Assembly: GCA_013152085.1 (NCBI GenBank)
Contig: JAADHC010000048.1
Coordinates: 21,790-85,789, forward strand
DNA length: 64,000 bases
Source: Chlorobiota bacterium
GTDB taxonomy: Bacteria > Bacteroidota > Bacteroidia > Bacteroidales > VadinHA17
Reading direction: 5' to 3'
Below are positions 50,652-54,645 of this stretch, piece by piece (positions within the stretch are counted from its first letter, which is position 1; every line of letters begins with the position of its first letter). The position numbers and the translations under genes were made by a program. The notes beneath the pieces were generated by a model. It saw only the letters and a program-made list of their open reading frames with translations, did no database searches and was not told the DNA's origin.

Positions 50652-50771
50652 ATGTATCTGGGAGAATTATTTTTATATCTGACCTGGCCGGTTTTGATAC
50701 TCATAGCTTATATATCCGTCCAACTGGCCTTACACTCATTTGAGCGAAACACAAAAATAAATGATGAATAA
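50652..50771 (+). CDS. CydX-like 39-aa single-TM protein, putative cytochrome bd accessory subunit
   Basis: Manual translation MYLGELFLYLTWPVLILIAYISVQLALHSFERNTKINDE*; one TM helix plus charged tail, 15 nt after cydB; below ORF-track size cutoff. Confidence 0.65.
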   Translation: MYLGELFLYLTWPVLILIAYISVQLALHSFERNTKINDE

Positions 50772-50866
50772 ATTGCAACATCAGCAAGAAAAGAACGTCA
50801 TATAGAATTATCTTTGAATGACATTCTTTTTTTATTTCATATCATTGAATTTTAAAACAACCATTT

Positions 50867-52894
50867 ATGCGTATTTTAACCTTAGGCGTACCGAAGGTCG
50901 TCAGCGGGGTTTTTCTTTTCCTTATCGTCTCGCTGTATCTTCATGCCCAACCCGGCGGGTATTACACACCTGCCGAAACAGTCCGGATAATCAATGATCT
51001 GGCAAAGAAAAATCCTGATGTTACACGGGTAGTTACCCTGGCCACCACTCCGGGTAAAAACCCGGTGATCCTGCTGGAAATCGGGAAGGAAACAGGAAGA
51101 CAAACCCGTACTTTACCGGCTCTGCTTGTTGTCGGAAATCCCGAAGGGGATGTTCCGATTGCTACCTCCGCTGCACTTTATCTTGCCGGAAGCGTACTGA
51201 AGGATCCGGCCCGGTATGAACACCTGACCTGGTATATTATTCCCGCACTGAATCCTGATGCGGAGGCGTTTTTTACCGGTACCCCAAAATACCGTGATCA
51301 AAGAAATGCACAACCGCACAACGACGACATGGACGACCTTACCGATGAGGATGGCTGCAATGACCTGGACGGTAACGGAATCATTACCATGATGCGCGTA
51401 AAAGACCCTGAGGGGCAATGGATTGCCATAAAGGACGACCCCAGGATCATGCGCAAGGCCAATCCCTCCAAAGGTGAAAAAGGGGTTTACAAATTATACA
51501 CCGAAGGGATTGATGATGATGGTGACGGAAAATACAATGAAGACGGCCCGGGAGGCACGAATGTAGGCATAAACTTCCCGCATTTATTCAAACCTTTTAC
51601 AGCTTCCGGAGGGAGATGGCCCGGGTCGGCACCCGAATCCTTTGCCCTGCTGAAGTTTGCAGCCGGGCATCCCGAAATTGCCATGTCCATGGTTTACGGC
51701 TCATCTGACTTCTGCCTGGTACCCCCTAAAAAAGGACGTAAAGGATCGGTAGATATGAACAAAATCAAAGTACCCGAAAATATGGCCGGAATGATTGGTG
51801 CGGATCCGGACAAAACCTATTCGATGAAAGAACTTATTAAAATGGTTCAGCCTATGGCCCCTCCGGGATTTGAGATCGATGAAAGTGTTATTGCCAGTTT
51901 TCTGGGCCTTGGTGCAGTAGTTAATCCACTGGACGAAGACCTGAAATTTTATAAGGAACTTTCGGAACAATATAAAAAGTACCTGAAAGACAAAGGCATG
52001 GAAGCCGAGCGACTGGATCCGGCAGCAGCCAAAGACGGATCGGTGGAATTATGGGCTTATTATCACCTCGGCCTGCCTTCATTTTCCATGGATTTCTGGA
52101 CATTGCCCAAACCCAAAAAGGAAAAGAAAGAATCCGGCGGGTTAACCATTGACCAACTTGAAAAGATGAGCAAGGAGGATTTTCTTGCCCTGGATGAAGA
52201 AAAAATAGCCGCCTTTCTGAAAGAGAACGGAGCACCCGCACAATTTAAGGCAGCTAATGTCATCAACATGATAAAATCGGGCCAGGTCTCTCCGAAACAG
52301 ATGGCCTCGATGATGAAACAGATGCCGAAAAAAGAGAAAGAAGAAGGAGAAGCTGATCCCAAAACAAAAGCCCTGATAGCATTCAGTGACAGCAATCTGA
52401 ACGGGAATGGGTATCTGCCCTGGAAACCTTTCAAACATCCCACCCTCGGCGAGGTGGAAATCGGCGGGGCAGTCCCTTATGCGGATAACACGCCTCCTCC
52501 CGGGATGGTAGATTCCCTGTTAAAAATCCAGGTCCCCTGGATTTTTACGCTGGCAGACAAATTACCCTCTTTAAGCCTCCTTGATACTAAAGTTACACCA
52601 AAAGGGGGTGGCGTTTATGCCCTGGAGTTGTGGGTAGAAAACAAAGGTTATCTTCCTTATCCCACAGCCATGGGTAAACGTGATAAACACCCCGGACCGG
52701 TCGTGGTAACGATTGACGGAAATAACCTGACTTTTCTGGAAGGGAGAAAGAGGACACCTGTACAAACTGTCGCCGGTCTGAAAGCGGTTAAACTCAGCTG
52801 GCTTATTCAGTCGGAAAAACCAGGAACCCTGAATATTTCATTGACGTCACCCAGTGCCGGAAGTGACCGGAAACAAATAAAAATAGGAGGATAA
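50867..52894 (+). CDS. Secreted M14 carboxypeptidase-like protein, probably inactive
   Basis: Signal peptide; aligns with the downstream M14 protein but has GNPEGDV for GNIHGNE and YGSSDF for FHNNGG. Confidence 0.85.
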   Translation: MRILTLGVPKVVSGVFLFLIVSLYLHAQPGGYYTPAETVRIINDLAKKNPDVTRVVTLATTPGKNPVILLEIGKETGRQTRTLPALLVVGNPEGDVPIATSAALYLAGSVLKDPARYEHLTWYIIPALNPDAEAFFTGTPKYRDQRNAQPHNDDMDDLTDEDGCNDLDGNGIITMMRVKDPEGQWIAIKDDPRIMRKANPSKGEKGVYKLYTEGIDDDGDGKYNEDGPGGTNVGINFPHLFKPFTASGGRWPGSAPESFALLKFAAGHPEIAMSMVYGSSDFCLVPPKKGRKGSVDMNKIKVPENMAGMIGADPDKTYSMKELIKMVQPMAPPGFEIDESVIASFLGLGAVVNPLDEDLKFYKELSEQYKKYLKDKGMEAERLDPAAAKDGSVELWAYYHLGLPSFSMDFWTLPKPKKEKKESGGLTIDQLEKMSKEDFLALDEEKIAAFLKENGAPAQFKAANVINMIKSGQVSPKQMASMMKQMPKKEKEEGEADPKTKALIAFSDSNLNGNGYLPWKPFKHPTLGEVEIGGAVPYADNTPPPGMVDSLLKIQVPWIFTLADKLPSLSLLDTKVTPKGGGVYALELWVENKGYLPYPTAMGKRDKHPGPVVVTIDGNNLTFLEGRKRTPVQTVAGLKAVKLSWLIQSEKPGTLNISLTSPSAGSDRKQIKIGG

Positions 52895-52896
52895 TC

Positions 52897-54645
52897 ATGA
52901 AACGATATTATATTTTAACAGCTTTTTTGTTGTTTTTTGTTGTTGTATCCACAGGTATGGCACAGGACAGCAAAGTGACTGTTCCCCTGCGTTTTGACCA
53001 TTACTATCCTTACGAACAGGTAGTCGCAGCCCTGAAGGCCCTGAACAAAGCCTATCCTTCCCTCACCCACCTCAACCTGGTGGGCCATAGCGAAGAAAAC
53101 CGGCAAATCTGGGCCATAACCATCAATAATCCCAAAACCGGTAAAGAATCTGATAAACCCGGCGTTTATGTTGATGGTAATATTCACGGCAATGAAATTC
53201 AGGCTTCCGAGGTTTGCCTCTACTTTGTGAATTATTTACTGACCAATTACGGAAAAAATGATAAAATCACGAAGCTGGTTGATAAAAACGCCTATTATGT
53301 CATTCCTACGGTTAATGTTGACGGGCGATATCATTTCTTCCACGATGCCAATACGCCAAGTACCAACCGGGGTTTGCGGCGTCCCAAAGATGATGACCAT
53401 GATGGGCTGGTAAATGAAGACTTCCCGGACGACCTGGATGGCGACGGAAATATCTGTATCATGCGAAAACGGGATCCGAACGGAAAATATAAGACCGATC
53501 CGGAAGACGCACGCCTGATGATCCGCGTAAAACCGGGTGAAAAAGGTGAATGGACCATACTCGGACAGGAAGGCATAGATAATGACGGTGACGGCCGGAT
53601 TAACGAGGATGCAGAAGGTTATGTCGATCCGAACCGAAACTGGGGTTATAACTGGGCTCCTCCCTATGTGCAGAGTGGTGCCGGGGATTATCCTTTTTCC
53701 GGACTTGGCATCAAAGCCATTGCAAAATTTATCCTCGACCGGCCCAATATCATCATGGTATGGGCTTTCCATAATAATGGAGGTATGATTCTCCGGGGCC
53801 CCAGTACAAAGGCCGAAGGAAAACTTAATACTTCTGATATCAGCGTATATGACTACCTTGGAAAAAATGGCGAAAAGATCGTCCCCGGATACCGGTACCT
53901 TATCAGCTGGAAAGACCTCTATTCCACCTATGGGGATTTTACTGACTTTACCGATAATATTGTGGGCGCTTATTCCCTTGTCGGTGAACTCTTCAGAACG
54001 GCAGATGAAACTTATAGTAAACCGGGCAAAACTTCCGGTGGCGATGATGAAATATTTGGCGGAAGCAGTAACGAACGGTCACGTGAACGGCTCAAATTCA
54101 ATGACCATCTGGCCATGGGAGAACTTTATAAACCGTGGACGCCTTTCCATCATCCGGTATATGGCGACATAGAAATCGGCGGTTGGGTAAAAATGAGTTC
54201 ACGCCTGCCTCATCCTTTCATGCTGGAAGATCTTGTTCACCGTAATGCATCGGCTGTTATCTTTTCCGCAGAACAAACGCCTGAAATAAAAATGGAAGTT
54301 ACAGGCAAAAAGAAAACCGGAAAAAACCTTTACCAAATCAGGATCAGGCTTACAAACAGCAAGGCTATGCCTTCCATGACTTATCATAGCGTTAAAAAGA
54401 AAGCTTATCCCATGGATATGCTGAAAGTGTTGGGAACGCAGGTTAAAGTAGTAGCCGGAGGGAAGCTGGTAAATGAATATACAGGTCAGACAAACTACAA
54501 AAAATATAAACCAGAAGTGCAGTTTGTACAGGTTCCCGGATTCGGAAAAACGGATTATCAATTCCTGGTAGAAGGCAAAGGAACTGTTACAATATTGTTT
54601 GAATCACGTAAAGCAGGGAAAAAAACGGTAACCTTCAAGCTTTGA
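52897..54645 (+). CDS. Secreted M14 family zinc carboxypeptidase
   Basis: Signal peptide; VDGNIHGNEIQASE (HxxE), VDPNRNWGYNW, WAFHNNGGM, YSLVGELF motifs. Confidence 0.9.
   Translation: MKRYYILTAFLLFFVVVSTGMAQDSKVTVPLRFDHYYPYEQVVAALKALNKAYPSLTHLNLVGHSEENRQIWAITINNPKTGKESDKPGVYVDGNIHGNEIQASEVCLYFVNYLLTNYGKNDKITKLVDKNAYYVIPTVNVDGRYHFFHDANTPSTNRGLRRPKDDDHDGLVNEDFPDDLDGDGNICIMRKRDPNGKYKTDPEDARLMIRVKPGEKGEWTILGQEGIDNDGDGRINEDAEGYVDPNRNWGYNWAPPYVQSGAGDYPFSGLGIKAIAKFILDRPNIIMVWAFHNNGGMILRGPSTKAEGKLNTSDISVYDYLGKNGEKIVPGYRYLISWKDLYSTYGDFTDFTDNIVGAYSLVGELFRTADETYSKPGKTSGGDDEIFGGSSNERSRERLKFNDHLAMGELYKPWTPFHHPVYGDIEIGGWVKMSSRLPHPFMLEDLVHRNASAVIFSAEQTPEIKMEVTGKKKTGKNLYQIRIRLTNSKAMPSMTYHSVKKKAYPMDMLKVLGTQVKVVAGGKLVNEYTGQTNYKKYKPEVQFVQVPGFGKTDYQFLVEGKGTVTILFESRKAGKKTVTFKL

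Follow-up and report, generated by a model that had tools for sequence, protein, structure and literature searches.

The locus described here raises the question of whether a short open reading frame lying directly behind cydB is a gene at all and, if so, whether its product is a small subunit of the cytochrome bd quinol oxidase. Several single-helix subunits of bd oxidases are known; CydS of Geobacillus thermodenitrificans is found at the position of CydX and CydZ (DUF2474) is encoded after cydB, both being linked to a CydA with a short Q-loop, and CydX, CydS and CydZ are considered to be similar but not homologous. The window, that is, the whole stretch of DNA analysed, comprises 64,000 nucleotides from a bacterium of the Bacteroidales, and an initial annotation made from its letters had pointed to a 39-residue reading frame 15 nt after the cydB stop, missed by gene annotation, as an independently evolved or highly diverged CydX analogue. 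The small ORF is a real, coding and unannotated gene, and as judged from its sequence its product is very probably a true third subunit of the oxidase, with a single helix and of CydX/CydY type, most likely the CydY/CioY of the Bacteroidales.

Table 1. Features of the cyd unit and its 3' flank, in positions of the window.
Feature	Position	Strand	Basis
cydW, DUF4492 small membrane protein, 70 aa	47704..47916	+	Pfam PF14899, E 6.7e-29
cydA, cytochrome bd subunit I, 521 aa, long Q-loop	47941..49506	+	Pfam PF01654, E 3.7e-166
cydB, cytochrome bd subunit II, 375 aa	49509..50636	+	Pfam PF02322, E 7.5e-68
Small subunit gene, CydX/CydY-type (probable), single helix, 39 aa	50652..50771, stop included	+	Conserved frame, purifying selection
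AT-rich hairpin and T-run, candidate operon terminator	50786..50833	+	Just 3' of the small ORF

The small ORF is confirmed at the expected place (Table 1), starting with ATG in the same frame as cydB, with stop codons in between, and its product is MYLGELFLYLTWPVLILIAYISVQLALHSFERNTKINDE. It is the last member of the order DUF4492-cydA-cydB-small ORF, which agrees with the four-gene unit proposed initially, the first three genes being identified by Pfam matches. The hairpin behind it has a folding energy of -13.9 kcal/mol (z -4.4) and none of 200 shuffles was equally stable, while no terminator-like site was found in the gap between cydB and the small ORF by a scan whose stricter pattern also missed this hairpin; it is therefore likely that the whole cyd unit is carried on one transcript terminating 3' of the small ORF. 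An Rfam search of the region gave no match. The Q-loop stretch of the CydA in the window consists of 161 residues, compared with 136 in E. coli. The genome (a 99% complete assembly) has one cydA, no gene for heme-copper oxidase subunit I (COX1 family) was found in it, and cytochrome bd appears to be the sole terminal oxidase of this organism among the bd and heme-copper classes searched. Downstream of the cyd unit (50867-54645) two adjoining large secreted-looking proteins are encoded, which by eye resemble tandem zinc carboxypeptidases (M14-like).

The evidence that the small ORF is a gene comes from its relatives. A tblastn search of 99 relatives gave 30 loci including that of the window, and 28 of them are located 15-181 nt 3' of a cydB, the two exceptions being one at a contig end and one false match. 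Furthermore, a profile search of 247 Bacteroidales genomes gave 103 strong matches (E up to 5e-6), and among those with the cydB position listed 80 of 81 directly follow cydB and share its strand; the odd one belongs to a genome with three cydB matches, only some of them listed. The dN/dS ratio across 16 independent close pairs is 0.153, indicating purifying selection, and the homologues in the collection of named genomes start with ATG in 71 of 72 cases, automatic start-finding having failed in the other. The search downstream of cydB and the dN/dS ratio had both been suggested in the initial annotation as checks, and both speak for a frame conserved in the Bacteroidales. These observations are confirmed to be far beyond chance. 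No Pfam or NCBIfam match was obtained for the window protein, searches of PHROGs and of PDB sequences gave no family, and a fold search with the lone helix returned nothing. The ORF is short and without a database family, and its translation is only inferred, all of which would suit an ORF arisen by chance or a leader whose translation yields no protein product, but the frame is kept in more than 100 genomes, under the selection described above and with near-invariant motif residues; the pure-chance version is refuted, and an explanation of either kind is extremely improbable.

The anatomy of the protein can be described from 107 distinct homologues in the numbering of the window protein. Trp12 is present in 100 and Pro13 in 101 of them, position 20 is aromatic in 100 (Tyr in 75, Trp in 25), Ala26 is found in 80, and position 31 is Glu or Asp in 96. 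The AlphaFold model has one helix spanning residues 3-37 (pLDDT about 95 in the core), and lysine plus arginine are more numerous on the C-terminal side of the helix in all 106 homologues scored (means, 3.55 after and 0.23 before), so that the protein is predicted by the positive-inside rule to be oriented with its N-terminus outside and its C-terminus inside; the single transmembrane helix and the charged tail read initially from the window sequence are borne out. The Trp-Pro pair is altered (e.g., to Trp-Leu or Leu-Pro) at nine loci belonging to relatives of Marinilabilia, Anaerophaga, Thermophagus, Geofilum and Carboxylicivirga, which form a natural variant series.

The small gene is common to most environmental Bacteroidales, and gut and oral relatives keep DUF4492-cydA-cydB without it. 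Among the best-matching 80 cydB loci from named genomes 72 have the gene, and one of the other eight is incomplete; the named carriers include Marinilabilia, Prolixibacter, Balneicella, Carboxylicivirga, Anaerophaga, Geofilum, Thermophagus and Labilibacter. In Parabacteroides distasonis, Bacteroides ovatus and Prevotella nigrescens, the gene after DUF4492-cydA-cydB is a convergent one, and these loci have no small ORF belonging to the family. Porphyromonas gingivalis, for which cydWAB but no cydX, cydY or cydZ is reported (PMC4668044), agrees with the clade found here to be without the small ORF. Outside the Bacteroidales, 297 genomes of the phylum, mostly of other orders, gave no significant profile match; the best one (E 1.5e-3) was rejected as weak and unrelated, with in-frame stops. 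About half of the sampled cydAB units of Bacteroidales have no small gene, so it is not always required, and those units show no consistent substitute small membrane ORF 3' of cydB, nor is the gene found elsewhere in the loci of non-carriers closely related to carriers. In a CydA+CydB tree of 144 rows, presence and absence change 11 times, versus 44.6 times when the labels are shuffled; the gene is absent from a clade of 33 rows with good support, and a clade of 106 rows mostly carries it with scattered absences. We read this as deep presence in the Bacteroidales with repeated loss, although the tree alone cannot separate gain from loss. Among the units otherwise without the gene, one, the second cydAB copy of its genome, has a diverged relative 18 nt downstream, MFTQILWLASLVVLMYVTYKITVVVYNRFEKKQQ, in which the Trp-Pro pair is lost.

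As for the role of the protein, the gene would be the last one transcribed in the cydWAB operon, and its product would be inserted with the N-terminus outside, leaving the charged C-terminus on the cytoplasmic side. To judge from CydX (PMC6853902, PMC8951039) and CioY, the helix, with its Trp-Pro end, probably packs on CydA, presumably on helices 1 and 4-6, beside heme b558 and the long Q-loop, where it would support assembly or stability of the di-heme site; we infer that the protein is translated and binds CydA. When CydA was searched for positions constrained only in the presence of the small gene, the strongest were mainly in helices 1, 4, 5 and 6, and those in the membrane include Ala134, Ala34, Asn138, Phe31 and Phe226 (E. 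coli numbering; helices 1, 4 and 6). Ala134 is found in 85 of 85 rows with the small gene and in 16 of 48 non-redundant rows without it. It is, however, kept in most secondary losses of the gene, a phylogenetically paired test of the CydA positions was not significant, and mycobacterial CydA, which is without a small subunit, keeps both Ala134 and Asn138. As evidence of an interface the pattern is confounded by phylogeny and contradicted by the mycobacterial CydA, and it is a hint only.

The relationship of the small protein to the known families has to be weighed against CydX and CydY. CydX has the motif YxxWxxGx15E/D and its family is essentially proteobacterial (PMC4325964), its C-terminus is cytoplasmic and its Glu25 is called a 'float' (PMC6853902). 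In the small family the Trp (100/107) and the Glu or Asp at W+19 (96/107) of this motif are kept, but W-3 is Tyr in only 46 of 107 (Leu in 41, Phe in 20) and the Gly at W+3 is absent, its place being taken by Leu, Phe, Met, Thr, Val or Ile; the genomic context, directly 3' of cydB with a long Q-loop CydA, is that of CydX. The CydX Pfam family PF08173 matched neither the window protein nor 29 relatives, and above its cut-off it matched in none of 119 Bacteroidales genomes, the E. coli control being positive; CydX sequences in turn score at most 6 bits against an HMM of the small family. A profile-profile comparison, on the other hand, aligned the small family with CydX in the W...E register with a score of 25.8 (probability 45-66%, P 5.6e-5, identity about 14%), while 90 transmembrane decoys reached 15.3 at most and 200 column-shuffled CydX profiles 22.3. 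The initial description as CydX-like is supported by the register, the predicted orientation, the linkage and the selection; the protein is not a member of the CydX Pfam family. A diverged CydX homologue, derived by direct descent from the proteobacterial CydX family and not from CydY, would account for this register, the predicted orientation and the P value above all decoys, but such descent is unlikely, considering the missing near-invariant Gly, the additional Pro after the Trp, the low HMM scores and the Pfam cut-off that is not passed, together with the better fit of the Trp, Pro and Tyr to CydY.

CydY is encoded after cydB in 15 epsilon- and deltaproteobacteria having a long Q-loop CydA and no cydX, and in every such operon cydA is preceded by another small hydrophobic gene (PMC4325964). 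The Campylobacter version, in which a Trp, a Pro and a Tyr are strongly conserved, has been renamed CioY; the C. jejuni protein (CJsORF3) is translated, is co-immunoprecipitated with CioA in both directions and, by prediction, docks as CydX does (PMC11955535). The name CydY has also been given to a different protein, E. coli YnhF (CydH) (PMC6853902). The small ORF lies 3' of cydB in a long Q-loop operon without cydX, and it has the Trp at the helix start, the Pro and the Tyr, or Trp, at position 20 in the proportions given above, so that, compared with the published description, it is most likely the Bacteroidales form of CydY/CioY. This alternative was absent from the reasoning of the initial annotation, and the independent origin offered there as one possibility is not supported. 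A Bacteroidota-specific family of bd subunits, with an origin separate from those of both CydX and CydY and converged as a single helix on the CydX site, would be in keeping with the identity of about 14% in the profile alignment and with the view that CydX, CydS and CydZ are similar without being homologous; if it were true, the repeated absence of the gene on a cydWAB background would mean changed bd assembly, stability or dimerisation. We regard such convergence as rather improbable, as the register and charge match to CydX exceeds the decoys and shuffles and is accompanied by the CydY signature and operon context, for which shared descent is simpler, and the tree puts the gene deep within the Bacteroidales with no sign of recent birth. 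It is a still more doubtful idea that the product is a bd-linked small membrane protein of another role, that is, one blocking oxygen access at the CydH site, mediating dimerisation or acting as an assembly factor and not as a stable subunit. The absence from many lineages that keep cydWAB, where it is evidently dispensable, and the fact that E. coli CydX itself mediates dimers (PMC13189123) agree with it, but the position after cydB, the orientation and the motif match CydX/CydY and not CydH, whose gene lies apart from cydAB (PMC6853902).

The functional idea of the initial annotation, a CydX-like subunit, is well supported. Such a subunit is ordinary in kind and apparently unreported in the Bacteroidota: in the literature searched there is no carrier of a cydX-, cydY- or cydZ-like gene from this phylum, the sole bd oxidase examined for it being that of P. 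gingivalis, which has none. A conserved small subunit without a family model gives wider reach to the idea that single-helix subunits are common in bd oxidases, and the natural pairs of presence and absence on the same cydWAB background offer a way to ask what such a subunit does.

Among the known systems, CydS and CydZ share with the small protein that they are single-helix bd subunits or candidates, at the CydX position in CydS and encoded after cydB in CydZ, and they differ from it in that the window unit has a long Q-loop CydA; CydZ (PF10617, DUF2474) was ruled out by this Q-loop and by the lack of a Pfam match in the 29 members scanned. The DUF4492 gene upstream of cydA has already been described as CydW in the cydWAB of P. 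gingivalis, and both its position and its description place the window gene in that family (PMC4668044); this upstream gene is found here and in nearly all loci examined, and CydW and the small ORF product are separate proteins. The window CydW has a sub-threshold match (E 0.0011) to CydP of NCBIfam (putative small subunit of a cytochrome oxidase), and such matches recur in 6 of 26 relatives (best 5.6e-4); the small proteins encoded upstream in the two phyla may be related. With CydX/AppX (PF08173) the small family shares a length of about 37 residues, one helix, a gene after cydB, a long Q-loop CydA, the Trp, the Glu at W+19 and, by prediction, an inside C-terminus, and it is unlike them in the Pro after the Trp, in the lack of the W+3 Gly and of an above-cut-off family match, and in a C-terminal side that is basic here and acidic in CydX. 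CydY/CioY belongs to a different phylum and was compared by its published description alone, and while CioY is proven to be translated and bound to CioA, the Bacteroidales family is known from sequence; both, however, are single-helix proteins encoded directly after cydB, with a Trp at the helix start, a Pro and a Tyr, in operons whose CydA has a long Q-loop, which have no cydX and in which a small hydrophobic gene precedes cydA.
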